Of a stretch of DNA of 64,000 nt, positions 26,894 to 48,700 are shown piece by piece. The first letter of the stretch is position 1; every line of letters starts with the position of its first letter. The notes beneath the pieces are model-generated. The model ran no database searches, was not told the origin of the DNA, and saw only the letters and a list, made by a program, of their open reading frames with translations. Position numbers and translations under genes: made by a program. The DNA comes from Chitinispirillales bacterium. Its GTDB lineage: Bacteria > Fibrobacterota > Chitinivibrionia > Chitinivibrionales > Chitinispirillaceae. The stretch is taken from contig JAIRVB010000018.1 in NCBI GenBank assembly GCA_031254105.1, positions 1-64,000 of the forward strand, given 5' to 3'.

Positions 26894-27035
26894 TTTTTCC
26901 TGTTTTCTATAGTGCGGGCGACCTGTAATCGCATCACCCATCTCTTTTCATTCATACCTGGACAGCCACACAGTACCTGTACGGACACCTCTCGCGAATG
27001 CCAAACCATACCCCGCTATGACATCTGTCATGTAC

Positions 27036-30543: not shown

Positions 30544-31791
30544 CTAAAACCGGTAAGTTGCGCTGATCTTTCTAAACAGAGAGAGCTGAGGTCCGCTTAT
30601 AAGATTGGTGAAAGTATAAGCAACGTCATTGGTTGAAACGAAATCAATGCGCAAACGGTTATCGATGTTGATGCCAAAACCCAGGCCAACCAAACCGTCT
30701 TCATCATCAAAATTCTCTTTGTTGTATTCAACCCATTTGCTGCTCTTGTTCTTATCGTCGTTCACATATCTGAACTCTTTCTCACCGCCTACACGGATCA
30801 GGAACCAATCCCACACAATGTTACGTTCAATACCAAAGCTGATCCTGCCGCCGATAGACTCATGATCAGCGCTGCCGTCCTTGTCCATCTGAGTGTAAAG
30901 ACCCTGCAAACCCGCCCAGAAAAATCCGCGGTCGATGTTCATATTAAGACCTATACCGCCGGTTACGTCAATAATTTCGCTTTTGTTCAGCTTCATGTGT
31001 TCCATTGAAACCTGAGGTACAAAAGCGCCGTTGATAGAGGGTACCGCGGAAAAGAAACGCACATCGCCGCGGTAGAAATAATCTCCGTCACAAACTTTTT
31101 TAATATAAGAACCGGCAGGATCATAATTTTCAGTAGTTTTGTCTGTAGTACGGTACCTGCCTACCATGCTTCCGCCATTAAAAGAAGCCTCGAAGTCAAG
31201 ACCCTGGTCAAGATTCCAGTTTATTCCCGCTGTAATCTTATAAACGCCGGACTGATTCATAATATCGTCATTTTCTTGAACTTTCTGATGAGCTCCGTAA
31301 AGACCGAATCCGAGAGCAATCCCGTTGCCTAAATCGTAGCCGAACATAAGATCAAGCTTGCCGACAGGATCTTTAAGGTTATACCCTTTCAGCTCCTGCG
31401 TTCCTCCGATATACGCCCCTCTCACTTCACCGCTTGCCTCAAGAAGACTCTGCACAAGACGGTCGCGGCGGTTCACAAACGCGCCGATGGACAACATCGG
31501 GGCATTGTCCCCTTCACCGAGCTTATGGGAGAACATCGCTCCAAAGAAAGGATCACTGAGTGTAAGGTTCCCTCTTTGTGAGACATAAATTTGGTTTTTT
31601 TCCTTATCTACCCAGCCATAAGAACCATACAGCATATTCGGATACAAACTCATATCAGCGGGATTTCTGAATACGCTGATCTCATCACGGAAGAAAGCAT
31701 CATGCCTTCCCATAACATCAACACGCGCATCCGTAGCATAACTACCAGCTACACACCCCGCTGCAAGCACTAATGCCAGCACCTTATTCAT
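30544..31791 (-). CDS. Outer-membrane beta-barrel protein
   Basis: 415 aa from ATG 31791, with GGAGGCGGGG just upstream. Signal peptide (ALVLAAGCVAGSYA), then alternating polar/aromatic strands throughout, ending in the terminal Phe of a barrel (ISATYRF). FRNPADMSLYPNMLYGSYG near the N-terminus resembles UPF0164/PorV-like barrel openings. It is the last gene of the eight-gene operon coding for the energised envelope machine, before a terminator. A role as the outer-membrane element is inferred. Confidence 0.75.
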   Translation of the reverse strand: MNKVLALVLAAGCVAGSYATDARVDVMGRHDAFFRDEISVFRNPADMSLYPNMLYGSYGWVDKEKNQIYVSQRGNLTLSDPFFGAMFSHKLGEGDNAPMLSIGAFVNRRDRLVQSLLEASGEVRGAYIGGTQELKGYNLKDPVGKLDLMFGYDLGNGIALGFGLYGAHQKVQENDDIMNQSGVYKITAGINWNLDQGLDFEASFNGGSMVGRYRTTDKTTENYDPAGSYIKKVCDGDYFYRGDVRFFSAVPSINGAFVPQVSMEHMKLNKSEIIDVTGGIGLNMNIDRGFFWAGLQGLYTQMDKDGSADHESIGGRISFGIERNIVWDWFLIRVGGEKEFRYVNDDKNKSSKWVEYNKENFDDEDGLVGLGFGINIDNRLRIDFVSTNDVAYTFTNLISGPQLSLFRKISATYRF

Positions 31792-31934
31792 AAACCCCGC
31801 CTCCATCGCAATTTTTTATTATGTTTCTTTTTTAAGTATACTACAGTTCGCGCATCATTCTCCATGTACGAGCGCCTGGGCGGGCGATAGGGGCGGATAA
31901 TTACGCCCTCTATGCCTGCGCCAACCAATTATCA

Positions 31935-33281
31935 TCACTGAGAGAACACAAACGGATAAACAACCTCCGTCACATCTCCAGGTTTGTCAATCTTGTCAAA
32001 ATTCCAGCTCTTCACACGGTCTACAACGGTTTTTTCAAGTTCAGGATCAGCCATTGTTGACTCAACTACCTGAGCGAAAATCACCTTTCCAAACTCATCA
32101 ATAGCGAATTTGACCGTGATTTTACCGTTCAAACCGGGTTTTTCACGCAAACGTCTATTGTAAGCGTGACGAAGCGCAGCCATATTCTGCATAACAACAC
32201 GCTGAATACTTGCACGGCTTCTTCCGCCCGTAAGCTGACCGCCCTTCAAAAAGTCAGGTGATGAAACTTTCAGTTCACCGCGCTTTTTAAGGTCAAGCCC
32301 GCCCCCGCCGCCGCCCATAAGGCCGCCGATAAGATCATCAATACCGCCGCCGCTGCCGCCGAAGCCGCTGCCATAACCGGAACCGTAACCGATACCGGCT
32401 ACACCCTTACGGCCTACGCCGCCGTCGCCGCCGGACTTAAGGCCGCCGACACCAGACAAAATAGCGTCAATATCTGTAGCAAAACCCCCCTTACCAAAGA
32501 TATCGGCGCTGGCCACACTTTTACCCTTGATCTGCCCGGATACAATACCAAGCACACCCATGTGGGTAACGCGCGCTCTGGGGTCTCCGCCGCCGCCCGT
32601 CATACCGCCCGCGCCTTTATTCTTTTGAGGCGTAAGCTTCTTCTGGTCGGTTTTGACCTCTTCCTCTTTCTTCTTTTCCTCTTCCTTCTTTTTATCCAAA
32701 GCAGCCTCAACATCCTCAGCCTTTACGAGCTTGGCGGTACGTTCTTCAGGCAGCTTTTCAAAAAAGTCGGTCGCAATCTCCACAACTGTGCGTGTTCCCA
32801 TGAAAATGATGAAACCAACAGCGAGAAGCATGGCTATGAACTGAACATTTCTCTGTCGAGTCTCTTTTTCTACAGTAAAAATATCCGCGCGTTTTTTAGC
32901 CATCTCGGCATACTCGGCATCAGTAAGGATTTTGACATTTTCATCATCGTCATCATCGTCATCGTCATCATCGCGGGACCTTGCCACCGGTGCGGCGGCT
33001 GCTGCTGCAGGAGCTGCGGCAGCGGCAGCGATCGGGGGGGGAGGCACAGCTGCGCCGTCATTCAATGGTACGAGATCCACTTCCGCGCCGCAAGCGCTAA
33101 ACTGCGCTTTGAGCCGCACCGCTTCCTCTTCTTCCGCTTCCTTCTTGATGCAAACAGCCTTTTGCGTAACGGCGTTAAACACCACATCGGCGGGACTTCC
33201 TGAGTAGCGCGCTATCTCATCGGCGATTCGGGAAGCTCTCTGAGGATCCTCGCACTTTTTTATAAGGATCTTATACTTCAC
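31935..33281 (-). CDS. AgmX/TonB-like energy-transducer protein
   Basis: 448 aa, GTG start, 2 bp after the preceding ExbD-like gene. Layout: L7/L12-like N-terminal domain (1-75; YKILIKKCEDPQRAS, AVRLKAQFSACGAEVDLV); Pro/Ala linker; a run of ten Asp; membrane segment near 147-167 (FIAMLLAVGFIIFMGTRTVV); Lys/Glu coiled segment; Gly-rich region (about 230-345); and an AgmX/PglI C-terminal TonB-like domain (ASIQRVVMQNMAALRHAYNR, GKITVKFAIDEFGKV, VKSWNFDKI). AgmX-type proteins belong to Myxococcus gliding complexes. With TolQ/TolR-like partners next to it, it should carry force across the envelope. Confidence 0.85.
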   Translation of the reverse strand: MKYKILIKKCEDPQRASRIADEIARYSGSPADVVFNAVTQKAVCIKKEAEEEEAVRLKAQFSACGAEVDLVPLNDGAAVPPPPIAAAAAAPAAAAAAPVARSRDDDDDDDDDDENVKILTDAEYAEMAKKRADIFTVEKETRQRNVQFIAMLLAVGFIIFMGTRTVVEIATDFFEKLPEERTAKLVKAEDVEAALDKKKEEEKKKEEEVKTDQKKLTPQKNKGAGGMTGGGGDPRARVTHMGVLGIVSGQIKGKSVASADIFGKGGFATDIDAILSGVGGLKSGGDGGVGRKGVAGIGYGSGYGSGFGGSGGGIDDLIGGLMGGGGGGLDLKKRGELKVSSPDFLKGGQLTGGRSRASIQRVVMQNMAALRHAYNRRLREKPGLNGKITVKFAIDEFGKVIFAQVVESTMADPELEKTVVDRVKSWNFDKIDKPGDVTEVVYPFVFSQ

Positions 33282-33283
33282 CG

Positions 33284-33781
33284 TTAATCATCCCTTTCCA
33301 TGACCGCAAAGTTCATATTGTTGTAGCCGACCTTGCCGCAGGTGTTCATAATCTTAAACATAACATCAAAATCTATGTTTTTGTCGATCTGAACGATGAT
33401 CCTGCCATGCACGGCGTTAAGAGCGCCCATGCGGACCATCTCCTCCTCCATCGCGAGACAGACCTTGAGCTTCTCCTCAAGCTTGGTGATAACAGGATCA
33501 TGCTCCTCTGCAGATATGTTCCTTGCATCCTCTGTAGGAACAACTGCCGCGTTGTCAAGAAGAATCATATCGTTGGTCACAGCGATCTGCAGGTTGACCT
33601 CCTGGGGCTTCTTCTTGGACTCCGAGTTAGGAAGCACTAAGTTATCAGCATTGGTCAGAATGGATCCGTCAGCCGAAAAACTCTTAATCAAAAACACCAG
33701 AATGATGGTAAACATGTCCATCATTGACGTAATGTTAAGATTAGTGTCTCCGGTTCTTGCTTTTACTCTTCCGCGTCCCAT
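33284..33781 (-). CDS. ExbD/TolR-like protein, with canonical membrane Asp
   Basis: 165 aa. One N-terminal membrane helix with Asp22 in NITSMMDMFTIILVF, the position of the proton-carrying Asp of TolR/ExbD. The periplasmic part ends with the ExbD-like IIVQIDKNIDFDVMFKIMNTCG. It should pair with the TolQ-like subunit to form an ion-driven motor. GAGGGG upstream of the ATG overlaps the end of the preceding gene. Confidence 0.88.
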   Translation of the reverse strand: MGRGRVKARTGDTNLNITSMMDMFTIILVFLIKSFSADGSILTNADNLVLPNSESKKKPQEVNLQIAVTNDMILLDNAAVVPTEDARNISAEEHDPVITKLEEKLKVCLAMEEEMVRMGALNAVHGRIIVQIDKNIDFDVMFKIMNTCGKVGYNNMNFAVMERDD

Positions 33782-33782
33782 A

Positions 33783-34562
33783 TTAACCCCTCAATTTCGC
33801 TATAGATATGTTCGGGAACTCCGCACTGCGTGCCGCATCCATGATCTGAACGATTTTATCGAAGATCACTTCGTTTTCCGCCGCTATGATCAGGTCATCC
33901 GCATCCTCAGCGTCACGGTAGCGCTCCTTAATCTTCATAAGACGATTCTTGAGCTCATCATAAGCGGAAAGCGGCTTGCTTTCAAACTCCGCCGGGTTAG
34001 ACACAATAATACGTCTGCGCGGGTTAGTAAGAGCGAATACAGTATCTCCGGCAACTACTTTTTCTACCGGATTTCCGTCAACATTAGTCAGCATCTCACC
34101 GAACTTGGTGTACATGCAATTGATAATGCTGCGTTTATCATCGGAAGTGTACAGAAAAATATCATAGCGTTCGTAAACCGTAAGCTCTCTGCCGCTGGGG
34201 TGCCTGGGCTGTTTGCCCGGTTCATACTCAACCAAAGTGTCAAGACCGTCTTTAGTGACATAACGGTGAAATTCACGGTAGAACAGGCTCGGCATGAATC
34301 CGCCCTTAGCGCCGAGAGTTACAACCGAGTCAGTGATAATCGCGGTCAAAAGTATTTTGGCGCTCTTATCCTCCTGCGGCTGCTCGGTAACAGCGCTTCT
34401 GGTTTGTGATCCTCTGGCTTCAGGAAGCTTTATGTCAATAACCGCCACTTTCGCGAACTCAGCGGAAACAAGCAACAGCGGAATGAGCACAACCATCAGG
34501 TTCATGAAGCACTTAAGGTCAAGCTCCGGAGCAGGTTTCATCTCTATATTTAATTTAGACAT
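33783..34562 (-). CDS. ExbD/TolR-like protein lacking the membrane Asp
   Basis: 259 aa from ATG 34562 (GAGAGGAT upstream); longer than usual. The membrane helix reads LDLKCFMNLMVVLIPLLL: Asn21 stands where the other paralog has Asp22. The remaining sequence is a TolR-like periplasmic part with a large insert (GRELTVYERYDIFLY, DDKRSIINCMYTKF) and a typical end (DLIIAAENEVIFDKIVQIMDA). It seems not able to bind a proton at this site, so it may be a structural subunit. It lies between the TolQ-like gene and the second ExbD-like gene. Confidence 0.85.
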   Translation of the reverse strand: MSKLNIEMKPAPELDLKCFMNLMVVLIPLLLVSAEFAKVAVIDIKLPEARGSQTRSAVTEQPQEDKSAKILLTAIITDSVVTLGAKGGFMPSLFYREFHRYVTKDGLDTLVEYEPGKQPRHPSGRELTVYERYDIFLYTSDDKRSIINCMYTKFGEMLTNVDGNPVEKVVAGDTVFALTNPRRRIIVSNPAEFESKPLSAYDELKNRLMKIKERYRDAEDADDLIIAAENEVIFDKIVQIMDAARSAEFPNISIAKLRG

Positions 34563-34585
34563 GAGGTATCCTCTCAACCAATGGT

Positions 34586-35212
34586 TTAAGCTTCAATCAT
34601 ATTAATAAGTTTGGACGACTTCTCATCAAGCTCCTGAAGAACGCCCTGAGATTTACCATCAAGAACACCGTGAAGAAGAAGCAAAGGAATAGCTGTCAGC
34701 AGTCCCCAGAGCGTAGATGACATCGCCATGGAAATACCGGAAGCCAGCGCCTGAGCTCTCTGAGCGGCAGGAACGTTAGCAACAGCGTCAAAGCAAAGCA
34801 TCAGACCGTAAATAGTTCCCATAAGACCCACGAGTGTAGCAAGGTTAGCCATAATAGGAATAAGATAAATGTTACGTGAGACGCGGGGCGCTTCTGTAAG
34901 AAACACTTCATCAACAGCTTTCTGTACCTGTTTCGAGCTTCTCCCGCGGTTCTGCAAGATAGCTGTAACGCTCTTTGCAAGAGGAGTATTCATTGAAGAG
35001 GAATACTTGATCGCCTTCTCATACTCTCCGGCTTTAATGTACTTTGATATACCGGCCATAAACGTACCGCTTCCGCCGCCGCATTTAATGAAAAGATAGT
35101 AGATCTTCTCACCGACAAGACCAAATCCCGCAAACAAAAGAAACGTAATCATCCACATAACCCAACTACCACTGGTAAGAAAACCATCGAGAACAAACTT
35201 GTACAGCTGCAT
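34586..35212 (-). CDS. MotA/TolQ/ExbB-like proton channel protein
   Basis: 208 aa from ATG 35212 (AAAGGAG upstream). Membrane helices at about 16-40 (WVMWMITFLLFAGFGLVGE), 118-142 (LIPIMANLATLVGLMGTIYG) and 160-182 (SSTLWGLLTAIPLLLLHGV), with the family hallmark ATLVGLMGTIYGLM. The pore-forming subunit of ion-driven motors of the ExbB/TolQ class. The next two genes are ExbD/TolR-like, completing the motor. Confidence 0.92.
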   Translation of the reverse strand: MQLYKFVLDGFLTSGSWVMWMITFLLFAGFGLVGEKIYYLFIKCGGGSGTFMAGISKYIKAGEYEKAIKYSSSMNTPLAKSVTAILQNRGRSSKQVQKAVDEVFLTEAPRVSRNIYLIPIMANLATLVGLMGTIYGLMLCFDAVANVPAAQRAQALASGISMAMSSTLWGLLTAIPLLLLHGVLDGKSQGVLQELDEKSSKLINMIEA

Positions 35213-35432
35213 CTTAGAGACTCCTTTCAATTAACAAAAAAGTACATTTTTATAGATTGTAACAATAGGATTCGAATTATTCAATACTTTTTTTGGAGAG
35301 CAGAGGCAAACCTTACCCCTACATCCCTCTGTACAGGCAGGATTTGCCCCTGCCTCCTGATTTTCCAAAACGCTCCTTTCATCTTTTTTAATAAAATGAA
35401 TAATTATTATCAACCAAAATTTCTCTTTTACA

Positions 35433-35459
35433 CAGGGAACGGTCACTGACCGTTCCCTG
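35433..35459. repeat. Perfect 27-bp palindrome
   Basis: CAGGGAACGGTCA, one base, then TGACCGTTCCCTG: 13-bp arms with no mismatch, in the gap between the TPR gene and the TolQ-like gene. It may act as a REP-like or attenuating hairpin. The 35231-35492 region holds no gene. Confidence 0.8.
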
Positions 35460-35492
35460 CGGCGATGCTCATAATTTCAGCGCATCTTAAAT

Positions 35493-38400
35493 TTACAAAC
35501 CTAATTTTTTCTTAAGTTCGCTGATTCTTTCCTGCTCCATAAGGATATTTCTGTCAGCTTCCATCTTTATACGCTGGAGCTGACTGATCTTCTCATCCAC
35601 ACCTATGTTCATGGTTATGATGTTGCCGATACGGCGTACGTTTCTGTCATACTCCGCGTCCCTCGAGGCCGCGGGGATAACATTACCCTCTTCATCAAGG
35701 CGCTCCTCCGGCTTCCACTCAACGATAACAATATCCTTGGCTTCTGAGGAAGGGTTAATAACATTTATCCTGTCCCTGATTTTGTCGATCCACTGGCTGT
35801 TGGCGATCCCGATATCTTTAGCCATGTGCATAGCTTCCTCATATTTCGGCAACGCGGCGTCGAGAGCTTCCAAATACTTCTCCTCAAGGAGTTCTATATA
35901 CATCTCCTTATCCTCTTCAGACATACCTCTTGGAACAGGTGAATTTTTGAATGTAAGCCCAACCTCTTCAAAAATCTGCCCGCGAAGATACGCCATCTCC
36001 ATAAGAGCCTGCATCGAAGAATCTATATAAGCGCCCTTGATATTCTGTTCCTTCGCCCAGGTAATGTTCTGGATGAAGTAATCCATCGCTCTCTCATAGT
36101 ATCTTTCGAGGCTTGAGAGAACCTTGATTTTTCCGGCGACCTTTTCCATCTCGTTTCCAAAGAGAGTCTGCTTGGCAACAGCATCGGCCATGTCATAAAA
36201 ACCTTTACCAATCATGTATGTCGCGCGAACAGTCCACTCCTCCACCCCAAGCTCAATCGCCTTGGCGTAGGACTTGGCAGGCTCCTCAAGCGCCCTTGTC
36301 TTGTTGCGCACAACTGTTCCCATCTCTTTTTCGTTTCTGGCGGTAAGCGGGATAGCGAGAAACTTTTTGTAATTAACCTCCCCCAGCATGAAGTAAGCCT
36401 GCGCAACGTTGGCAACATCGATATCGCTTGTTTTTGAGTGCTGCTCATAAACCCTTACAGCCATATTATAGTTGTCTTCAGCGTCTTTCAGGTTACCCAT
36501 GTTAAAGTAAGCGTTTCCAGCCTTAACAAGCGCCTGCACCTGCTTGTACCTGTCCGAAGTGTGCTTCTTTGCATAGTCGGAGAATACATTGGCCATCTTC
36601 GCGAACTCTTCAAGCTTCTCCCAGCAAAGACCGATTGAGAAGAACGCCTCTGCCGCAAACTCACTTGACGGGTAACGCTGAGCCAAAGCCTCATACACAT
36701 TGATAGCATTGTGGTAGTGCCTGCCCTTTTCAAAGATAAGACCCGCGTTATAAAGCGCCATGGGGGTCTGCGGATCATTTGCGTAACGTTCATAAATAAG
36801 CTCGAACATCTTTCCGGCCATATCGTACTGGTTGAGCTTCTGGTAACATTCAGATGCGCTTGACAAACTCGGAATCGCAAACTCAGCCTTGGGGATATTG
36901 TTCGCGGCTGTTAAGTAGACCTGAGCGGCTCTTTCCCATTTTTCTGTTTTCTTAAAGTTCTCAGCTGCGCGGATGTACGAATTTTCACGTATGGCTGATC
37001 TCGGAAATTTTTCGGTAAGCTGCAGAAATGTCTCAGCAGCCTTATCGAAATCCTTCTGCTCCTCAAAGCATACGCCAGCCTCAAACCATCCGCGGTCCGC
37101 CACCTGAGAGTTCGGGAACTCATTGGAGATCGCCTGAAAAGCGGTTACGGCTCCGGCCAAATTACCGCTCCTTTTAATCCCTTCGGCGTGGCGGTACATG
37201 GCGCCGGCCGCAAGGTCGATAATCTCCACATATTCATTGGAGTTAGGCGGTGTTTTGGCTATAAGAGTCTTGTATGTCTGCATCGCCATATCGAACTGAT
37301 TGTTGAATGAGTAGCTGTTTGCAAGAAGTCTTAACGCGTTAGGGGCGATCTTGGCATCCGGGTATTGGTCAACAATCTGCTTGAATACAGGGACTGCGCT
37401 TGCGTACTGTTTGGCTCCATAATGAATATTACCCGCCAAATAAAGCACTTCCGGAGCGTTGGAGCTCTTATCAAAACGCTGCTGGAACCGCAGGCAGTAA
37501 TCTATAAGCTTCTTTGTAGAAGGCAAAGCGTAGGCCTTTTCATCATCAAGACCCTCCTTAGCCATCTCTTTTTTGCGGCAGTTGTCAAGAGCTACTATAA
37601 CGTTGTATCCGGCGTCTTCCTGAGAGATAGCGACAGGGCTGCTTTTGTCCCCCTTTGTAGCCTTGAGCCTCTCAAGCTCCTCCGCGTCCATACCGAGAGT
37701 ATCGACATCAGGTATAAAAGCCGGATATTTGGAAAGATCCTCCATAGCAACGAAATTGTAGTTTTCGGCGGCCTTTTCACAGTCTCCCAGAGAGCTGTAA
37801 ATTTCCGCTACGTTATATCTGTATTCGTAAATTCTCCACTTGTCATCAGGGAACTTCTGGAAAAACTCGTTGTACCTCTTCATCGCCCTCTCATACATCG
37901 AACGGTCGCGCGTCTTCTGCGCTTCAGCATGGTAATAAAGAGCGATGGAACCCAACGCGCGGCGAACCTCAGCTCTTGACTTTTCGATAACCACACGCTG
38001 GTTTGAGTTTGCGGCGTACCACTTGCTGCCCTCACCGTAATCGTCAACAAGTTTCTCACGCTCATCATTAGCTCTCTTATGCTCCTTCTTAATTACCAGA
38101 CACTCAATAAGGTGCTGGCGGGCAATAGGCGCTTCCTTATACATGGGGAAACGCTGGAGAGCGCTTTCGAGCGCAGGTATAGCGGCGTCATACTGGCCGT
38201 GGGTTCTGTTTTTTATACCGACAGTATAAATAACCTGAGCCTCATAAGGCTTGTTGGGATGCTTCTTGAAAAATTTCATCGCCTCCTGCGCGCCGTTTTC
38301 CATATCGGAAAAAGAGATAGCCATGTATTCAAGCGCCATCTCGCGGAACTGCTTGCTTGGATAACGGTTGGCATCGCACTCAAGAACATAGCTGTGGAAA

Positions 38401-39188
38401 AGTTCAACAGCGCGGTCAAAATCACCCATACTGTAGTAGCACTCCGCGCGCCGGTAATGAGCCATCTCCCAGGAGATAGGATCAACCTCGTTTCTCTTAA
38501 CTCTTTCAAGATGCTTTGACGCCTCAACAAAGTTATGATCCATAAACGCCAGATCAGCCAAACGGAAATGCGCGCCGCTGACACGGGGGCTGTTTGGGAA
38601 ACGCTGAACAAGCTGCTGCAGAATTATCTTTGTAGTGTCAAGCGCTCCGGCCACAAGGTAAATGTTGGCCATCTGAGTAAACGCCTCAGGCAGTTTTGGA
38701 AAGGACGGATACTCACGTGTGAGCTGCCAGTACATACCCAAAGACTTGTTGTAATTGGGAACAGGAGCCCTGGGCGGGGTTCCGCGGCCCGTACGTTCAA
38801 AAGCTTTTATTTCATCATCGTGGCGTTCAACCGCTTTAACAAAATTGTCACGGTCCTGATCATAGTATAAAGAGGCGAGAGTAAACATCACATCCGCGCA
38901 ACGGTCGGTTTTTCTTACCGCACACCCCTCAAGAAGTCTCTCATAACGGGCCACGATCTCCCCAAGACTCTGCCCTGTAGGACGGCTCGCCTCAACAGTT
39001 TCATGCCTTTTCTTCTCATTCTGCTGTTTCTGGCGCAGCAACTCATTCATTCTCGCCTGCTTCTCCTCCGGCGTCATATCTTCAATCTTCTTCTGCCCTT
39101 TCTGAGCTGAAACTGAAGATACAAATACAATCAGCATGACAAAAAGAAACCGCATTACACAAGCGCCGACCCCAGATCTCCTGGACAT
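35493..39188 (-). CDS. Large periplasmic TPR protein
   Basis: 1231 aa from ATG 39188 (AAAGGAGAG upstream). Signal sequence (FLFVMLIVFVSSVSAQ), a basic coiled segment (EEKQARMNELLRQKQQ), then more than twenty TPR-like helical hairpins (e.g. GALDTTKIILQQLVQRFPNSP, FDRAVELFHSYV, DFDKAAETFLQLTEKFPRS) and a helical, acidic end (KISQLQRIKMEADRNIL). The TPR type with R/K-F-P-x-S turns is that of YbgF/BamD and Glt proteins. A scaffold in the periplasm of the machine encoded by this operon is inferred. Confidence 0.88.
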   Translation of the reverse strand: MSRRSGVGACVMRFLFVMLIVFVSSVSAQKGQKKIEDMTPEEKQARMNELLRQKQQNEKKRHETVEASRPTGQSLGEIVARYERLLEGCAVRKTDRCADVMFTLASLYYDQDRDNFVKAVERHDDEIKAFERTGRGTPPRAPVPNYNKSLGMYWQLTREYPSFPKLPEAFTQMANIYLVAGALDTTKIILQQLVQRFPNSPRVSGAHFRLADLAFMDHNFVEASKHLERVKRNEVDPISWEMAHYRRAECYYSMGDFDRAVELFHSYVLECDANRYPSKQFREMALEYMAISFSDMENGAQEAMKFFKKHPNKPYEAQVIYTVGIKNRTHGQYDAAIPALESALQRFPMYKEAPIARQHLIECLVIKKEHKRANDEREKLVDDYGEGSKWYAANSNQRVVIEKSRAEVRRALGSIALYYHAEAQKTRDRSMYERAMKRYNEFFQKFPDDKWRIYEYRYNVAEIYSSLGDCEKAAENYNFVAMEDLSKYPAFIPDVDTLGMDAEELERLKATKGDKSSPVAISQEDAGYNVIVALDNCRKKEMAKEGLDDEKAYALPSTKKLIDYCLRFQQRFDKSSNAPEVLYLAGNIHYGAKQYASAVPVFKQIVDQYPDAKIAPNALRLLANSYSFNNQFDMAMQTYKTLIAKTPPNSNEYVEIIDLAAGAMYRHAEGIKRSGNLAGAVTAFQAISNEFPNSQVADRGWFEAGVCFEEQKDFDKAAETFLQLTEKFPRSAIRENSYIRAAENFKKTEKWERAAQVYLTAANNIPKAEFAIPSLSSASECYQKLNQYDMAGKMFELIYERYANDPQTPMALYNAGLIFEKGRHYHNAINVYEALAQRYPSSEFAAEAFFSIGLCWEKLEEFAKMANVFSDYAKKHTSDRYKQVQALVKAGNAYFNMGNLKDAEDNYNMAVRVYEQHSKTSDIDVANVAQAYFMLGEVNYKKFLAIPLTARNEKEMGTVVRNKTRALEEPAKSYAKAIELGVEEWTVRATYMIGKGFYDMADAVAKQTLFGNEMEKVAGKIKVLSSLERYYERAMDYFIQNITWAKEQNIKGAYIDSSMQALMEMAYLRGQIFEEVGLTFKNSPVPRGMSEEDKEMYIELLEEKYLEALDAALPKYEEAMHMAKDIGIANSQWIDKIRDRINVINPSSEAKDIVIVEWKPEERLDEEGNVIPAASRDAEYDRNVRRIGNIITMNIGVDEKISQLQRIKMEADRNILMEQERISELKKKLGL

Positions 39189-39252
39189 TTTTCTCTCCTT
39201 TTTATTGGGCTGGGGCAAGCCCTGCCCCTACTGCCATTTTCTACCTATGTAC

Positions 39253-39317
39253 GGGCGTTGCGTGCAACGCCCTCCCTGTTTTTTCTTTGCCAAATGGGGG
39301 GTTGCGCGCAACCCCCC
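39253..39317. repeat. Two REP-like palindromes
   Basis: GGGCGTTGCGTGCAACGCCC (39253-39272) and a longer G6-TTGCGCGCAA-C6 palindrome (39296-39317) lie in the 39189-39410 gap. They match the palindrome family found at 27036. The gap also has GGGGCAAGCCCTGCCCCTAC near 39211 and GAGCGATTTATCGC near 39343. Confidence 0.8.
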
Positions 39318-39410
39318 TACAATTTTCCTATCTTCGTACAGGAGCGATTTATCGCACCCTTTTCATAATCAATCTTCGCATTGGCATGGGTGCGACGCCA
39401 CGCCGTATTA

Positions 39411-41867
39411 TTATTGCCCTTCGGCCTCAAGCTCCTGCCTGAGTCTTTCGATCTCCTCCTCCAGTCTCTCCTGTTCGCTTCTCATGCCGTCAAGCGTCCT
39501 GGAAGAGCCTCTGCTCTTAACATAGTTTGTTGCTTTGGCAAGCGCGTAAGTAGCATCGTCCACGATCTCATCCTTGCGCATGAAGAACCTCGTGTGAGAC
39601 TTCTGCATAACCTTATAATCGAAAAACTCCTTGTTCTCCTTTGCAAATACTTCGTACTCTCTCTGAAGCCCTGGCCTCTCTTCAAGTGTGCGCTGGCTTG
39701 GCTTCCTTGACGCGTTTCTTTTAATTCTATCGGCAGTCGGGCCAAACGCGTCATTCGCTTCATCAAACTGAACCTTGCGCGTCCTTACATCATTTTCGGT
39801 TAAATACGCTTTTTCTGTCGCGGCCAGGCAACGCTCAAGCGTAATAATCGCTTCGGGGAAGCGCTTTTGCAGCATAAGCGAGTAACCCTTTAACAGCTGC
39901 GCTTCAGGAACAAGCGGCGACTGGGGGTGAAGCGAAATTATTCTATCCGCTCTCTGCCACGCCAGCTGCGCCTGACCCGCCTTAATCCAGGCCCACGCGC
40001 TTCCAAGCAGCGCCTCATCGCCGTAAGGATCCGCGTTGTCAGGAACTCTGCCGTACGCCTCAACCGCTTCTCTTAGCTTGTCGCCCGCTTCAAAATACAG
40101 GTGTCCGAGCTTTAACGCAGCCGCGTGCTGAAGCATAACATCTTCAGTCCGTGAAGAGGTATCATGAATAACAATCAGAAGATTCTGTATGGCAGCCTGC
40201 ATCCTGTCGCTTTGCAGGTTTATAACAGAAAGCGTATACTGAGCGTTTTTGTAAGAAGGATCCGTAGTCTTGACTAAATCTAAAAGTCTTTTTGCTTCTT
40301 CGTGATTATCGCGCATAAACGCTATCTGGCCGGCCAGATAATGAGCTTCACCCACAATTTCGCTGTCTTCATAGAGATTTATAATAAAAGCATAGTTTCT
40401 CAGCGCCTCATCGTAAAGTTCCTCACGGTAATCAACATTCATGAGCCCGTAAAGATAATGGGCGCGCATGTCTGAAGTGGAGTACTCCTCCATCGCTTCC
40501 TTAAACACTTCGCGGGCGGTTTCATTCATGTAAAGATGCCTGTAGCTCTCTCCCATGTAGTAAACAGCTTTGTCATTAAGATAGAATGTGGGATAAAGCG
40601 CCATGAGTTTGCCGTAAGCAAAAACCGCTTCCCAGTACCTTCCCGCGTAAAAGAGGCGCATCGCTTCCTGATAGGTATCCATAGGAGCCACAACAAGCCT
40701 GTCGTAGAGACGCTTTGACTCTTTCTGCTCACGGGTTTTACCCATATCCGCAGACAAACGCAGCATCATAACCATACCGCGCTCATCCTTAAGCGTACCC
40801 TGCGCCTTTTCGACAAAACTATATCCGAAATGATAATCAAGGTTGAAATAGTTTATCATTTCAGGAAGCGGGTAGATGAAATTGTAGTTAAAACCGAGAT
40901 AAGGAATGTTATTATTTGTCCATCCGCCCTTGAACCAGATCTGAGGGATAAACATGTACTTCGCGTGAAATCCCCAGCGCGGTACAATAGGGGGCGAGGA
41001 GATCGAAAAACCTGTCGGATAATTGCCGGGGTTATTCTTTACCTCATCCTTAAGCCTCGCCATATCGCTTTTCATCCAGTTAATGTTATCATGTATGAAT
41101 TGCATCGCGTTATCAAGGATCATCTCAAAACTTGTGACAAGATTATCGTTAAGACCGCTGTAACGGATACCGAAACGGGCACGCGAGGAGGTGACAAGAT
41201 TGTCGTTGTCGGAACCAGCGATTGCGGCTACCGCGGCGGCATTCCAAGGGGTCTGGGTCGGCATAATATCAAGAAGCGCGATGCTTACTCCCAAATCCCC
41301 GAAACGGTAATGGTCAATCGGGTTGAAATATAACCCCATATCAAGACCAGGAACTTTGGAAAGCGAGGTCTCTCCAAACTGAATCTGGGAGCGGAGTTTT
41401 AAATTAGCGCCCGCCACAAACCATGGAAAAAACCTGTAGCTGTAATTACCCACGATCCACAAATCCTGAAAGGAAACCATCCCGAGCTCCCGGTACCCAT
41501 CACTGCCGGCATCAGGAACAGCTCTTTCCATGGAATTGCGCGTGTGAAGCAGGGTAAGTCCAACAGTATGGTTGAGACGTACAGGGTAATAGAGGCCAAA
41601 ATCCTGATACCCCATATTACCTCTGTCAAGACCCCAGCGGTAAAACGCCATACTGGCGTGCAACTGGTTAACTCTGTAAAGCAGCGCGGGGTTTACAAGC
41701 GCGGATGTCCAGCTGTTAAGATCCTGAGTAAAGTCAGCCTGGAAATATGGAGCGTCATAACCGCCGCCGCCATCACCAGCGCCCTCCTGCCCAATAGCGC
41801 AGACAGACAAAAGCAGTAAAGCCACAAACAAAACCCGCAGAAAACCGGCATTTTTTTTCGTTTTCAT
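39411..41867 (-). CDS. Outer-membrane barrel/TPR fusion protein
   Basis: 818 aa; GGAGGGG precedes ATG 41867. Signal peptide (LFVALLLLSVCAIGQ). Residues about 35-360 resemble a barrel of the PorV/UPF0164 type (NSWTSALVNPALLYRVNQLH, then many aromatic strands such as YSYRFFPWFVAG, GVSIALLDIMP). Residues about 385-700 are TPR-like helices (YQEAMRLFYAGRYWEAVFAYGKL; SDMRAHYLYGLMNVDYREELY), and the end is a coiled coil (RSEQERLEEEIERLRQELEAE). Fusion of a barrel to a periplasmic TPR arm would link the outer membrane to the TPR scaffold encoded next. Confidence 0.8.
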   Translation of the reverse strand: MKTKKNAGFLRVLFVALLLLSVCAIGQEGAGDGGGGYDAPYFQADFTQDLNSWTSALVNPALLYRVNQLHASMAFYRWGLDRGNMGYQDFGLYYPVRLNHTVGLTLLHTRNSMERAVPDAGSDGYRELGMVSFQDLWIVGNYSYRFFPWFVAGANLKLRSQIQFGETSLSKVPGLDMGLYFNPIDHYRFGDLGVSIALLDIMPTQTPWNAAAVAAIAGSDNDNLVTSSRARFGIRYSGLNDNLVTSFEMILDNAMQFIHDNINWMKSDMARLKDEVKNNPGNYPTGFSISSPPIVPRWGFHAKYMFIPQIWFKGGWTNNNIPYLGFNYNFIYPLPEMINYFNLDYHFGYSFVEKAQGTLKDERGMVMMLRLSADMGKTREQKESKRLYDRLVVAPMDTYQEAMRLFYAGRYWEAVFAYGKLMALYPTFYLNDKAVYYMGESYRHLYMNETAREVFKEAMEEYSTSDMRAHYLYGLMNVDYREELYDEALRNYAFIINLYEDSEIVGEAHYLAGQIAFMRDNHEEAKRLLDLVKTTDPSYKNAQYTLSVINLQSDRMQAAIQNLLIVIHDTSSRTEDVMLQHAAALKLGHLYFEAGDKLREAVEAYGRVPDNADPYGDEALLGSAWAWIKAGQAQLAWQRADRIISLHPQSPLVPEAQLLKGYSLMLQKRFPEAIITLERCLAATEKAYLTENDVRTRKVQFDEANDAFGPTADRIKRNASRKPSQRTLEERPGLQREYEVFAKENKEFFDYKVMQKSHTRFFMRKDEIVDDATYALAKATNYVKSRGSSRTLDGMRSEQERLEEEIERLRQELEAEGQ

Positions 41868-41895
41868 ATTCTATAACCCCTCCATGAAGCATACG

Positions 41896-43251
41896 TTACT
41901 TCAGCGGGATAACCTCCACTCTGCGGTTAGCGGCCCGCCCCTCTGCCGTTTCGTTAGATGAAATGGGACGTTCTTTTCCGTATCCCCGAGCCCTGATACG
42001 ATTTTGAGCGATACCGTGGGAAACAAAATAATTCATCACAGCCCTGGCCCGGCGCAAAGAGAGCGACATATTAAAGTCATCTTTGCCCTGGTTATCTGTG
42101 TGCCCTGCGATTTCAACCCTGAGATTCGGATAATACATAAGACTGGCGTATATCTTATTTAATTCTTCGTAAGACTCATCAAGGAATTCATCACTCTCTG
42201 TTCTAAAATTAACCCCGCGAAGAACAACTGTTTCGGTAATCTCCATCGGTTTCCCTTCCGGTTCCGGCACAGACTGCTCTTGCGGCGGTCCGTAAGAGGG
42301 AGCGGGAACAGGATCATTATAAGATTTCTGATAGCTCTGAGAAAAAGCCGTTTCCTCCTCAGCCTGCTGCGAGGCCATGTTCACAGGAGCAGCCTTAGCG
42401 CCAACAGCCGCAATACCGATATCGGCGCCATCCTCACCTCTGCCCTTGCACAGCGAAGAGGGCCTGAGCGAGTAGTCAAACTTTGGATACCCCGGACTGC
42501 TGAACTGCGGCGCCACTGAAATATTGGACTGCCGCACAGTTTCATTATCCGCGTTAGAGTTGTACTGTACACGGTTATTATAGAAGTTATTATTAGTAAT
42601 TCTTACCCTGCGCGAATCCGGCACCAGAAAAATCCCATACTGCTTGTTACCGCTAAAAATATTATTGCGCACCAGAACCTCTGTTCTGCCGGCCCCAAAG
42701 ATTCCGTTGTAACCGTTCTCCAGAATAACATTATTGGAAATAGAGGTGCGTGTTCCGCGCACTGATTCAAGAAAGATACCTGTCCACTCATTGCGGTAAA
42801 TTATGTTGTTAGTAATATCCGGCAAAGTTACTAAAGCGTGAATACCGGTTCCCTTATTGTCAATAATTAAATTACGGTCTATAATCGGCCTTGTATTCTT
42901 GCACAGTATGCCTGTTTTACCGTTACGGATTGTAAACCCTGTAATAGAAGCGCCGTCGGCTCCCGCAACTACCGGCCCCTTGCGGCGTCCATCTATTATG
43001 GTTGTAAGCATATCCTCGCCCACAAGCGCTACATCATCAACCAGGGTTATGTTTTCCTTGTAAAGTCCCTTTCTAACAAATACCGTATCTCCCTCCTCAG
43101 CCACATTAAGAGCAGCCTGAATTGAGGAGAAATCCTTAGGCACCGTAATCTTTTTTTGCGCCCACGCTGAAGCAGCAACCGATAAAATCAGTAAAGTTCC
43201 TGTGACTGCCAGCTGTTTTGTTTTTTTTGTGCTCATACCCGTTTTCTTCAT
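41896..43251 (-). CDS. Beta-helix protein with C-terminal OmpA domain
   Basis: 451 aa. Signal peptide (LLILSVAASAWAQ), then a NosD/DUF1565-type right-handed beta-helix at about 35-245 (IQAALNVAEEGDTVFV; NNVILENGYNGIFG; NNNFYNN), a Pro/Gln-rich linker, and an OmpA-family peptidoglycan-binding domain at about 325-451 (VEIAGHTDNQGKDDFNMSLS with Asp and Arg ligands for diaminopimelate; ARAVMNYFVSHG). The first gene of the operon, so it likely anchors the machine to peptidoglycan. The start site is uncertain: a Met at residue 6 is also possible. Confidence 0.85.
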   Translation of the reverse strand: MKKTGMSTKKTKQLAVTGTLLILSVAASAWAQKKITVPKDFSSIQAALNVAEEGDTVFVRKGLYKENITLVDDVALVGEDMLTTIIDGRRKGPVVAGADGASITGFTIRNGKTGILCKNTRPIIDRNLIIDNKGTGIHALVTLPDITNNIIYRNEWTGIFLESVRGTRTSISNNVILENGYNGIFGAGRTEVLVRNNIFSGNKQYGIFLVPDSRRVRITNNNFYNNRVQYNSNADNETVRQSNISVAPQFSSPGYPKFDYSLRPSSLCKGRGEDGADIGIAAVGAKAAPVNMASQQAEEETAFSQSYQKSYNDPVPAPSYGPPQEQSVPEPEGKPMEITETVVLRGVNFRTESDEFLDESYEELNKIYASLMYYPNLRVEIAGHTDNQGKDDFNMSLSLRRARAVMNYFVSHGIAQNRIRARGYGKERPISSNETAEGRAANRRVEVIPLK

Positions 43252-43536
43252 TAAGGGCTTAAATTGTTAGAGACCGCATTACCGGATATAGAAGTGCTGA
43301 TAATAGATAATATACTTACATAGATATTTGCGAGTCAATATCCATCTAATTCTTCTTAAGCGATATACCGCAAAATGCATATAACTAAGTGTATCTCTTT
43401 TTTTAAATCTATCTTCTTTCACTGATATGTGCAAGGTTTTTTTGCATGAATATGATAATAAAAATAAAATATAAGGTTAAAAGTCTCCCATAACCGCGGT
43501 TTTTTAATGTTTTTGGCCGCGTGGCTTTAAAAATAT

Positions 43537-43729: not shown

Positions 43730-45424
43730 ATGAAATTAAAAAAATTGCCTTATGGTCTGCCAAATTTTGCTGATTTAATAGAAAGCGGTTACACTTATGT
43801 TGATAAAACCCGTTTTATCGAACTTTTGGAGAATGAGAGCAATCGGTTCCAGTTATTCCTGCGCCCCCGCAGATTCGGCAAAAGTCTGTTTTTATCCGTG
43901 TTGGAGAACTATTACGATCTTGGCGAAAAGGAGAAGTTTAAATCTCTTTTCGGTGATCTTTACATTGGCAAAAATCCCACGCCGGAGCAGGGAACATACG
44001 TGATTCTCGGGTTTGATTTTTCCGGCCTGGATATTTCCGGCAGTCCCCAACAATTCAGAACATCGTTTTTGAACCGTATTGAACGAAGTGTTATCGCGTT
44101 CTTTGAGAGATATGAAAATATTTTTACAAATGCCGCCGAGGAGGCGCGGGAAATTCGGGAACAAAAACCGGGTATAGGTGCATTGGATTTTGCGTATGGT
44201 GCAGCAGCGAAAGCCAAAGTTAAGATTTTCGTCATAATAGACGAATACGACCATTTTGCAAATAGACTCATTTTAATGGGTGAAGCCTACAGTAGAGAGG
44301 TGAAACCCGAAGGCACAATCAAAGCGTTTTATGAGACATTAAAAGCAGCAACCAAATCAGTAGTCAAACGGATGTTTATAACGGGTGTCAGCCCCATGAT
44401 GCTCAGCGACCTCGCGAGCAGTTTTAATATGTCAACAAATATAAGTTTGGATGATGCTTACAACGAAATGTATGGTTTTACGAAAAACGAAGTGGAGCGG
44501 CTGGCGCGTGAGACCGGTATGGATATGGATTTGATGCAAGTTGATATGGAATATTATTACAACGGTTATATGTTTAGTGATCACGGCAGCGAAAAGGTAT
44601 ATAACCCGCAGATGGTCTTATACCTGTTTGATCAAATATTGAAGTTAAAGAACCCCCCTAAAATAATTGACCCCAATCTGCGAACCGATCCGGAGCGCTT
44701 GCGCCGCTTGGCCGAAAACGAAAATAATCTGGAAACAATGATGCGTATCATAAAAGACGGCGGCATTTCTTCCAAAATAGTTGAGATGTTTTCATTAGAC
44801 AATCTCAACCGCAGCGAGTATTTTGTTTCCTATCTATTCTATCTTGGGATGCTCACAAACGGCGGTACTTTTGAGGGGTTAACATACCTTAAAATTCCTA
44901 ATTATTCCATAAAAACGCTTTATTGGGAATATTTAGCATTTTCCATACAAAATTTGGAAACAGATACAGCCCGTTATGATGAATTTATGAAAACGGTGCG
45001 GGAAATGGCTTTCAAAGGAAACGCGGCGCCCTATCTGAACTTCTTCGGAGAATTTATTTTAAAGCATCTTTCAAACAGAGACATGGCGAAGTTTGATGAG
45101 AAATACATCAAAGCCATGCTATTGGCTAACCTGCTCATGAGCGGATTGTATCTGCCCAAATCCGAAGACGAAAACATTAACGGCTATACAGATATATATC
45201 TTCAAAAGCACCCGGCAGTGAAGGATATAAAATTCGAGTACATATTTGAAGTGAAATATGTCAAAACCAACGCGGATAAAAAAGAGAAAACCTCAAAGCT
45301 CACCGAAGCGGCAACCCAAATTGAGAAATATAAAAAAGATCCGCGCTTTGCCAATAGGAATGATATAAAATTTTTCGCGCTTATCTTTGAGGGGAAAAGG
45401 GTTTACGAGGTAATGGAGATATAA
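43730..45424 (+). CDS. AAA-ATPase-like protein with PD-(D/E)xK nuclease-like C-terminus
   Basis: 564 aa. N-terminal AAA-ATPase-like domain: LPYGLPNFADLIESGYTYVD, then the Walker A-like RPRRFGKSLFLS (about 45-56) and Walker B KIFVIIDEYDHFA. The C-terminal DUF1703/PDDEXK-9 domain includes IKFEYIFEVKYVK with the E-x-K of the nuclease core. The family occurs in many copies in Bacteroidetes, Fibrobacteres and anaerobes; its function is not shown, and a defence or mobile role is often guessed. GAGGAG lies upstream of ATG 43730. It is flanked by a MITE-like copy on the left. Confidence 0.85.
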   Translation: MKLKKLPYGLPNFADLIESGYTYVDKTRFIELLENESNRFQLFLRPRRFGKSLFLSVLENYYDLGEKEKFKSLFGDLYIGKNPTPEQGTYVILGFDFSGLDISGSPQQFRTSFLNRIERSVIAFFERYENIFTNAAEEAREIREQKPGIGALDFAYGAAAKAKVKIFVIIDEYDHFANRLILMGEAYSREVKPEGTIKAFYETLKAATKSVVKRMFITGVSPMMLSDLASSFNMSTNISLDDAYNEMYGFTKNEVERLARETGMDMDLMQVDMEYYYNGYMFSDHGSEKVYNPQMVLYLFDQILKLKNPPKIIDPNLRTDPERLRRLAENENNLETMMRIIKDGGISSKIVEMFSLDNLNRSEYFVSYLFYLGMLTNGGTFEGLTYLKIPNYSIKTLYWEYLAFSIQNLETDTARYDEFMKTVREMAFKGNAAPYLNFFGEFILKHLSNRDMAKFDEKYIKAMLLANLLMSGLYLPKSEDENINGYTDIYLQKHPAVKDIKFEYIFEVKYVKTNADKKEKTSKLTEAATQIEKYKKDPRFANRNDIKFFALIFEGKRVYEVMEI

Positions 45425-45707
45425 AGCGTTATTGATAGCATGTAACAAGAGATCAATTTTATATCAAATATAACTTTGGAAAGTAAAATATGAATACAAA
45501 ACAGGAAAGGTCAGAACTCTTCAGGTTTTTTCAATAGATATCGGAGTGTTGAAATTCAATGGTACAACGCTGTTCAAGCGATCCAGTTGTAATCAGTTTA
45601 AGCCGCCCGGGCTCAACCATATTGTATCTTTAATAATCAAAAACACAACCCTTTATATTGAAATAAGCAAGGTACGGCACAGAAGGCGAAGTTATTGCAG
45701 GAGATCA

Positions 45708-48700
45708 ATGAAACTACCCATAAAAAACCCATTGCTCATCACAGCAGCCGCTATTATTGTATTTATATTACCCGCGGCGGTTTCAGGCTTCGGCAAAAAT
45801 AAAGTCCAATACCGGATGATGAGCTGGCAGCGCATGGAAGCTCCCCATTACACTCTTTACTATCATCAGGATCAGGGCCCGCTTCCTGAAATTACCTATA
45901 CGCTCCTTAATGATATATACCGCGACCTGAGCGGCAGGTTCGGATATGTACACAACTCAAAGGTACCTGTAGTCATATACGAATCTCCCGCCCTCTTTGA
46001 GCAGACAAACATAATCACTGAGATTCTGCCTGAAGAGGCCGGCGGTTTTACCGAATATTTCAAGAACCGCGTCGTTATGCCGTTTAACGGCTCTCTTCAT
46101 GATTTCCGCCACGTGCTGCACCATGAGATGATACACGCCTTTGTTTTTGGGATGGTTTACGGGGGAAGCATCTTCAGAATCACCAATGCGCAGGTGCCGC
46201 TGTGGTTCAATGAGGGATTGGCGGAAGTGCTCTCCGCGGGCTGGAACAAGGAAGCCGACATGTTCATGCTCGACAGAGTCACGAGTTCACACGTCGCGGT
46301 TCCGGGCCCGGAACTTAACGGTTATATGGCGTATAAGGGCGGACAGTCTTTTTTATACTACTTATACAGCACCGAAGGCGACAGCCTGTTTAACCGGATG
46401 CTCACGAGTTTCAAAACCGGCAAGAACGCGGAAAAAGCTATAGAACATGTTTACAAAAAGAAATTAGAAGCTCTTGGAATGGAATGGATCCGCGAACTGC
46501 GCCGCATTTACTGGCCGGAAGCGGGGCGGCGCATCAGCCCGGAAAGCAACAGTCTGCCTGTGACAAACAATATCAAAGAGAGAAGCCATATAAACCTGCG
46601 CCCGAGGATCTCTCCCGATGGTAAACTTGTCGCTTTCTACAGTGACAAAAAAGACTACACCCGCATTATTATCGTGGATACCAGTGGTAAAGAGATCAGA
46701 CAGATAGGTCAGCATGGATTTGGAAACACAATCGAATCGTTCCAACCCTTTAACAGCGGCATGTGCTGGTCGCCGGATGGCAGGCAGCTCGCGTTCACCG
46801 CGAAACTGGGAGGGCGTAACGAGATCAGAATTGTTGACGTCAAAAGTGGAAAGAACAGACGTACAATAAAATTGCCTCTCTCCGCAATTAACACTCCCGA
46901 CTGGTCAAAAGATGGTTCCAAATTAGTTTTTACCGCTATCGACAAAGGTCAGAGCGATCTTTACATGTACGATTTGACGACATCCGGTCTTAAACGCCTC
47001 ACAAATTCCGTACAATCAAAAAGTTTTCCAAGATTCAGCCCCGATGGCGGTAAAGTTATCTTTTCAAGCATTGATACAACCGGACTTGCCGCGGGGCCGC
47101 ACTCCGGAGCGCTCGGATCAACATGGAATATCACCATATTTGATATTGACAAAGACAGCAGCTTCGTTTTGACAAATACTCCATGGAACGACAGGCAGCC
47201 GGTCTGGTCGCCTGACGGGAACTCTTTTATCTTCGTCTCCGACCGCAACGGTATTGACAATTTATACTTAGCTGCGATTGACGCGCCCGGTCAGGCAAAG
47301 CCTCTTACAGACTATATGGGAAACTGCTCAAGCCCAGACTGGGCTCAAAACGGTTCGGCGATAGTTTTTGACCTTTTTTCAAAGCAGGCGTGGAACATCC
47401 GGCGCATGGAAAATCCATTAGAAAAAGTTATGGATGAACCTCTCGCGCTCACCAGATGGGCTGAGCATGAACAGGAGCGAAGTATCCCGTTCTTCAAAAA
47501 AAGCGATATGATAACATCAGCAAAAAAAGTTGATGATAAGGGATCAAAAAAAGCTGTGCTGACAGAGGTTGTTGATTCTGTTAACATCACCGATTCAACC
47601 GACTTATCTGTCTCTGTCGATTCTGTCAATACAACCGATTCCACAAATTCAACTGATCCCATTACCTTGGTTGATTCTGTCAACGTTATCGATTCCACGG
47701 ATTCAGCAGTTTCCGTTGATTATATCAATTTAGCGAATTCTGTTGACCTTATCAGCTTAAAAGATTCCGCCCAATTAGAAAAATTTGTTGATTCGCTGAA
47801 TCTTGCGCAAATTAATGACACTGCAAATACCGCGGAGGAAACAGACAGCTCCGACGGTGAAAACCTTGCCAGAAAATACGCGACTCCAATTTTTAAGGAT
47901 TTCATTTCCGCAGACACCCTGCCCTACCCTCTTTCATACAGGCTTCGCTTTACACCTGACCTTGTGATATTCGGGCTTGGTCTGAGCACTTACAGCGGCG
48001 CCTCCGGACAGTGGCTTGCCATGTTCAGCGATATAATGGGAGATCACCGGATCACTCTGGCCGGAGATGTGCAGGCAAACTTTAATGAATACGCTCAACT
48101 CTACCTGACGTATCATTTTCTGAAATACCGCGTCAATACCGCAATCGGAGGTTTTTACTCTAAAGACTACGCCCACGATGGTCTTTTCAACAGATATTAC
48201 CATGATATGGAAGCGGGCGGGTTTTTAGGGTTCAGCTACCCCTTCTCAATGTTTACAAGAGCGGACCTGCATTTTTTCGGACGCCGTATGGAACGCGCTC
48301 TAGTCTCAAAAAGCAATAACAGCGCCGCACAAAGACATGACGCCCTGCTGTCGGTACTCTCCCTCTCTTTTGATAACATTTTGTGGGGTATCACAGGTCC
48401 GCTTAACGGAGTGCGCGCCCAGACACGGTTCCACCTCTCGCCCGCCCTGTCTTTTATTGACGAACCATATATAGCGGGCGATGTTGACATGCGTCACTAC
48501 TGGCATATCGCGAAAACATTCGTATGGGCCAACCGCTTTACAGCAGGCGGATCAATCTCTCTTAATGATGACAAATCCGCCAGGCGCTTCTTTCTTGGCG
48601 GAACAGATAACTGGTTCAACTACGACGTTCACCGCGCGAACTATGACAATAACCTGCGGTACAGCTATTACTCCGACATAGTTTCGCCTCTTAGAGGGTG

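Follow-up and report, generated by a model that had tools for sequence, protein, structure and literature searches.

A phylum-wide eight-gene cluster of the Agl/Glt kind in Fibrobacterota, a probable proton-driven envelope machine

Gene content and layout of the cluster

The analyzed window is a 64,000-nt stretch of contig JAIRVB010000018.1 (assembly GCA_031254105.1) from a Chitinispirillales bacterium, in which a cluster at 30544-43251 encodes the parts of a predicted energised trans-envelope machine. Eight minus-strand open reading frames (ORFs), running from 43251 down to 30544 and numbered P1–P8 in the order of transcription, were all confirmed by an ORF check of the window. They encode, in order, a beta-helix–OmpA protein, a PorV-like barrel–TPR fusion, a giant TPR protein, a TolQ, two TolR proteins, a GltG/TonB-like transducer, and a barrel protein. 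An earlier interpretation made from the DNA letters only (the sequence-only reading) had described eight same-strand genes with these domains, closed by a strong terminator. The ORFs in place and their Pfam and NCBIfam matches agreed with the former, and the predicted fold of the terminator agreed with the latter. The features are listed below with their counterparts in Fibrobacter succinogenes S85 (FSU numbers).

41896..43251, minus strand: P1, 451 aa, signal peptide, right-handed beta-helix, and C-terminal OmpA peptidoglycan-binding domain; orthologue of FSU_2396
39411..41867, minus strand: P2, 818 aa, predicted PorV/FadL-like outer-membrane barrel fused to a TPR superhelix; orthologue of FSU_2397
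35493..39188, minus strand: P3, 1231 aa from ATG 39188, exported giant TPR scaffold (TPR_6, 2e-43), position conserved among loci; orthologue of FSU_2398
34586..35212, minus strand: P4, 208 aa, TolQ/AglR-like proton channel (MotA_ExbB, 2e-22); orthologue of FSU_2400
33783..34562, minus strand: P5, TolR-a, without the transmembrane proton-binding Asp and with a periplasmic insert of ~100 aa (ExbD, 2e-11, in two pieces); orthologue of FSU_2401
33284..33781, minus strand: P6, TolR-b, transmembrane Asp kept (ExbD, 5e-14); orthologue of FSU_2402
31935..33281, minus strand: P7, GltG/TonB-like transducer; orthologue of FSU_2403
30544..31791, minus strand: P8, predicted outer-membrane barrel, weakly PopA-like (NF053618, 1.5e-5); presumed orthologue of FSU_2404
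43309..43338, minus strand: sigma-70-like promoter candidate from a consensus scan, TTGACT-18-TATATT, 57 bp before P1
30455..30515, minus strand: strong intrinsic terminator closing the cluster (61-nt fold of -28 kcal/mol, z = -7.0, 17-bp stem, U-run)

The start codons of P3 (ATG 39188), P4 (ATG 35212), P5 (ATG 34562), and P8 (ATG 31791) were refined using ribosome-binding sites and the lengths of the proteins in relatives. P1, P2, P3, and P8 carry signal-peptide-like N-termini, and P4–P7 are inner-membrane proteins. Terminators between the genes would have spoken against a single unit, and a window scan found no intrinsic-terminator-like sites on the minus strand in the intergenic gaps of the cluster. 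The P2–P3 and P3–P4 gaps are tighter in many relatives. In the window, these gaps (39189-39410 and 35231-35492) contain perfect palindromes within short dispersed repeats, parts of which recur at window position 27030 and in L014, a locus on contig C13. The hairpins were considered as terminators splitting the unit and were rejected, as they lack a T-run and are in part repeated elsewhere.

Conservation in the phylum and the F. succinogenes orthologue

P7 was used as the query against 168 genomes of the phylum and matched in 159 of them. Loci were taken from many Fibrobacterota families, with Chitinispirillia, Chitinivibrionales, and Fibrobacter metagenome-assembled genomes as named relatives. 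The order P1–P8 was kept in 53 of the 54 loci holding at least four cluster genes, 32 of which covered the full span from P1 to P8; the sole exception was a paralogous array. This conservation of order, which the sequence-only reading had proposed as its own check, is far beyond chance and extends across a phylum of plant-fibre- and chitin-degrading bacteria. Two of the nine P7-negative genomes nonetheless had a strong P4 match, and in G162, which is 98% complete, the loss appears genuine. The cluster is a real, ancient, and phylum-wide machine. In Fibrobacter-type genomes, mreB-mreC-mreD-PBP2-rodA lies directly downstream of P8 (27 of 51 testable loci; for example, L113:12666-18101); all the linked loci are outside the class of the window, and none was seen within it.

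The masses (kDa) and isoelectric points (pI) of the Fibrobacter-type orthologues were 55.9 and 4.86 for P1, 83.85 and 5.51 for P2, 146.56 and 8.50 for P3, 23.0 and 9.14 for P4, 32.44 and 4.72 for P5, 18.24 and 4.73 for P6, and 32.46 and 9.84 for P7. As these values match the published figures for FSU_2396, FSU_2397, FSU_2398, FSU_2400, FSU_2401, FSU_2402, and FSU_2403, the cluster is the orthologue of FSU_2396-FSU_2404, with the same genes, order, and sizes. The sequence-only reading had called the barrel-TPR and beta-helix/OmpA fusions and the lack of TolB/Pal distinctive. The cluster is not peculiar to this genome: it is found phylum-wide, was already known in F. succinogenes, and represents a variant form of Agl/Glt machinery rather than a novel class.

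It has long been asked how F. succinogenes attaches to crystalline cellulose and breaks it down without cellulosomes, and three threads of literature concern this one machine. In envelope proteomics of strain S85 (PMC6851124, PMC4619616), the cluster proteins increased 1.2-1.7-fold on cellulose, and FSU_2396 and FSU_2397 were reported to belong to a multi-protein complex that also contains cellulases and a fibro-slime protein. FSU_2400-2403 were read by those authors as a TonB uptake operon and the OmpA/TPR proteins as a cellulase scaffold. A sheep rumen study listed FSU_2396 to FSU_2404 as "eight highly expressed genes" and suggested vesicle formation (PMC8092306). Luciano et al. 2011 (PMC3169522) assigns F. 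succinogenes genes to the 'core complex' that gave rise to Myxococcus gliding. This core comprises AglRQS with GltC, D, E, and G, occupies one clustered region in all non-deltaproteobacteria studied, and places F. succinogenes with the deltaproteobacteria; AglR and GltG bound each other in a two-hybrid assay. Judged by content and class, the F. succinogenes core genes of that study are probably FSU_2396-2404. It was the only open-access text found to join Fibrobacter with AglRQS. Among the open-access texts found, joining motility-core phylogenomics, envelope proteomics, and rumen transcriptomics is new, and it recasts 'TonB uptake' and 'OmpA/TPR scaffold' as parts of one testable motor.

Motor, transducer, and envelope parts compared with known machines

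P4 is a TolQ resembling AglR, and its proton-channel Thr residues are intact: Thr139 and Thr173 (counting from the TTG at 35230) were invariant in ten diverse sequences and correspond by position to the Thr145/Thr178 pair of TolQ. In an alignment with the canonical TolR of the same genome, every one of the 50 P6 sequences had the transmembrane Asp, and the 51 P5 sequences having a residue at that column all had another one (G 26, N 20, C 3, and S 2). The Agl/Glt core complex likewise has two TolR paralogues, AglQ and AglS, but both are described with the Asp in M. xanthus (PMC9389320). In the simplest reading, P5 and P6 would pair as a heterodimer, giving an axle with a single proton site; alternatively, P5 could be a non-conducting accessory. 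The single-Asp pair bears on mechanism and not on descent, and it offers a clean test case for unequal-axle motors. A separate set of one ExbB/TolQ, two ExbD/TolR, and TonB was observed at L015:7010-9535 (contig C23) with a receptor-like barrel nearby, and its ExbD pair has the same N/D split at the Asp column as P5 and P6.

P7 consists of an L7/L12-C-terminal-domain-like cytoplasmic domain (about 1-75), a transmembrane helix (136-163), a Gly-rich linker, and a TonB-like AgmX/PglI C-terminal domain (350-448). The C-terminal domain matched NF033768 (AgmX/PglI; 3e-24, 84.8 bits against a cut-off of 40) and also TonB_C. P7 matched GltG (NF033760) with 6e-32, yet far under the 650-bit equivalog cut-off, and GltJ/AgmX far more poorly (5e-5). 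The AgmX likeness of the sequence-only reading is thus the weaker one for this protein, which is of the GltG type (a transmembrane helix with an AgmX/PglI C-terminal domain). In AlphaFold and Foldseek comparisons, the confidently modelled N-terminal domain matched 1ctf (TMt 0.81), the C-terminal domain matched those of TonB proteins (TMt 0.5-0.68), and the linker was modelled at low confidence. The N-terminal domain also matched PF00542 (0.0037). It is present in the taxonomic order of the window and missing in Fibrobacter, where P7 has 308 aa, and in other deep families. No FHA domain was found on P7: where Myxococcus GltG carries its FHA domain, P7 has the L7/L12-like domain, for which a regulatory role is a guess.

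Additional P7-related sequences were observed. L014:7849-10487 (contig C13) holds a second, partial P5-P6-P7 copy with 79% DNA identity over 2.6 kb; it was rejected as a full second cluster, as no TolQ, TPR, or barrel genes adjoin it. Directly downstream (L014:5749-7695) is a gene for a YfbK-like vWA protein, the N-terminal part of which carries a copy of the Gly-rich linker (77.6% DNA identity, 156 bp). Fusions of the linker and/or the AgmX/TonB-like domain were seen in relatives (L053, L054, L055, L056, L057, L058, and L061): with VIT/vWA proteins of 860-1375 aa and, in L061, with a TPR protein. At L149:1228-3183 (contig C25), a TonB-like domain is apparently fused to a TonB-dependent-receptor-like protein.

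P1 matched OmpA (9.6e-22) and Beta_helix (1.2e-17). P2 is predicted to be a FadL/PorV-like barrel (~60-375) followed by a TPR superhelix (379-720) and a long helical tail (AlphaFold, pLDDT 79), and it matched chain F of the translocon of the type IX secretion system (T9SS; 6h3i_F), the FadL homologue 3dwo, and the PorV family NF033709 (6e-4). Its weak match to GltC (8.5e-8) could be accounted for by TPR similarity alone. P3 is a candidate GltD counterpart by its GltD-like size and TPR content, and P8 is predicted to be a barrel from its weak PopA similarity; a search against sequences of solved structures found no match for its fold. The P2 and P8 barrels were considered as duplicates, which was rejected because a profile comparison gave no similarity.

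The Agl/Glt core complex and the Fibrobacterota cluster share a TolQ, two TolR proteins, a GltG-like transducer, and a large TPR protein in one region. They differ in the lost Asp of one TolR and the lack of FHA on P7, and P1, P2, and P8 are not described in the accessible portion of PMC3169522. The motor class and transducer logic are also common to the Agl-Glt gliding and Nfs sporulation machines of Myxococcus, which transport surface glycans (PMC3858216); unlike in these machines, no GltA/B/F/H/I/J/K was recognised here. The vWA force transducers beside TPR-tolQ-tolR-tolR (PMC12204202) likewise have TolQ and TPR together with a pair of dissimilar tolR genes, whereas the transducer end of the cluster has the TonB fold and the vWA forms are separate paralogues in Fibrobacterota.

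Proposed mechanism and alternative explanations

We propose, with a probability of about 0.6, that the cluster encodes a force machine that spans the envelope, belongs to the Agl/Glt 'core complex' type, is driven by the proton motive force, and acts on surface polysaccharide-binding complexes. The motor, transducer, OmpA, TPR, and barrel parts and the conserved order uphold the single energised trans-envelope machine of the sequence-only reading, and a machine of this kind driven by the proton motive force is highly probable. The proposal also draws on the invariant P4 threonines, the P6 Asp, the core-complex phylogenomics, the expression and complex data for the F. succinogenes orthologues, and the surface-glycan transport by Agl-Glt/Nfs machines. 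Gene content, gene order, the intact motor residues, and the presence of the Asp on one TolR were observed directly; we infer the physical assembly, force path, and cargo as follows. A P4 pentamer of the TolQ type and the P5/P6 pair would conduct protons through the protonatable Asp on P6 alone. The motor would drive P7, which would sit in the inner membrane by its helix and extend its TonB-like end into the periplasm as far as P3 and the P2 TPR arm. The outer-membrane end would consist of P2 and P8, and P1 would hold peptidoglycan via its OmpA domain. The most likely load would be surface polysaccharide-binding complexes, which in Fibrobacter may be the cellulose-binding fibro-slime/cellulase complexes; that these are moved or mechanically held is a tentative step, for which we would put the odds slightly short of even.

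Several points weigh against this proposal. We found no genetic studies of a Fibrobacterota member in the literature, and the expression and complex data stem from Fibrobacter, which is outside the class of the window. The cellulose induction was modest, with FSU_2397, FSU_2398, and FSU_2400 also detected on glucose. The presence of the cluster in nearly all members, including some not known as cellulose degraders, fits a general envelope role equally well, and the sequence does not establish P2, P3, and P8 as GltC, GltD, or any Glt barrel.

Envelope maintenance is the main rival: a second Tol-like integrity machine, in which the motor would pull a P1-P2-P3 tether between the outer membrane and peptidoglycan, keeping the envelope joined as the cell grows without moving any surface cargo. 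Its near-universal presence in the phylum, the mre linkage, the OmpA anchor, and the YbgF/CpoB-like TPRs recognised by profile searches in the cluster proteins are all in keeping with it. We nevertheless consider it unlikely, since the genome already holds a Tol set, apparently with its own TolQR, and the Agl/Glt-type transducer and the reported cellulose induction point elsewhere. Contig C16 ends with TolQR, and C23 begins with the TolA C-terminus followed by TolB and CpoB; from these contig ends, they probably form one Tol set, so that TolB seems to be served by a separate TolQR and not to share P4–P6. Pal was not located in the genome. The cluster shares with Tol-Pal the motor class, an OmpA-type peptidoglycan anchor, and TPRs, but lacks a TolA-type transducer and TolB, and a Tol-Pal identity was rejected because a separate Tol system exists. 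Of the two resemblances offered by the sequence-only reading, Agl/Glt thus stands with the GltG-like P7 and Tol-Pal falls; the absence of TolB and Pal it had remarked on is true of the cluster, while TolB is present elsewhere in the genome.

Gliding motility of the Myxococcus kind, to whose motor the sequence-only reading had likened the cluster, would use the same motor, two TolR proteins, and GltG-like transducer, and F. succinogenes is published to hydrolyse cellulose along the crystal axis. This likeness holds for the motor and transducer and does not extend to gliding, which is possible but unsupported because MglA was not found in the genome; Arf-family matches occurred only in frames of 565-892 aa, a length that fits translation GTPases. 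The lack of an FHA domain and of recognised Glt outer-membrane families, the published statement that motility of F. succinogenes is not demonstrated, and the insufficiency of the core genes for gliding (PMC3169522) also make it improbable. Any gliding could run on another motor, given the T9SS-type C-terminal tails present (25 matches). A bolder form of the force-machine proposal is that Fibrobacterota have a rotary-type motor in which the two TolR proteins make an obligately unequal axle (one Asp per motor, not two), and that this motor moves or holds surface complexes bound to cellulose, giving mechanical help to contact-dependent fibre degradation despite no demonstrated motility; we regard this as speculative and rather unlikely.

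An outer-membrane-vesicle formation machine, as suggested for FSU_2396-2404 (PMC8092306), would agree with the reports of FSU_2396 and FSU_2397 in vesicle complexes and with the high expression of the eight genes in the rumen. Vesicle presence may, however, merely reflect an outer-membrane location, and no vesicle mechanism requires two TolR proteins and a GltG-like transducer, so this role is quite improbable. TonB-type energised oligosaccharide uptake, as proposed for FSU_2400-2403, gains from the TonB fold of the P7 C-terminal domain and the induction on cellulose, but it is very improbable, as profile searches (Pfam/NCBIfam) recognised neither the plug nor a barrel family of TonB-dependent receptors in P2 and P8, none of 11 aligned P7 sequences had a His (SHLS-type motif) in the transmembrane helix, the ExbB-ExbD-ExbD-TonB set on C23 is separate, and the OmpA, TPR, and barrel parts would be left unexplained.

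Beyond P1, the window contains an AAA-ATPase/nuclease-like gene (43730-45424, plus strand), followed by a gene for a protein with Peptidase_MA, a PD40 propeller, and a barrel-like part (45546-49028, plus strand), divergent to the cluster. The former was not seen at that place in relatives such as L024 and L025. A large gene similar to the latter divergently adjoins the cluster in several relatives.

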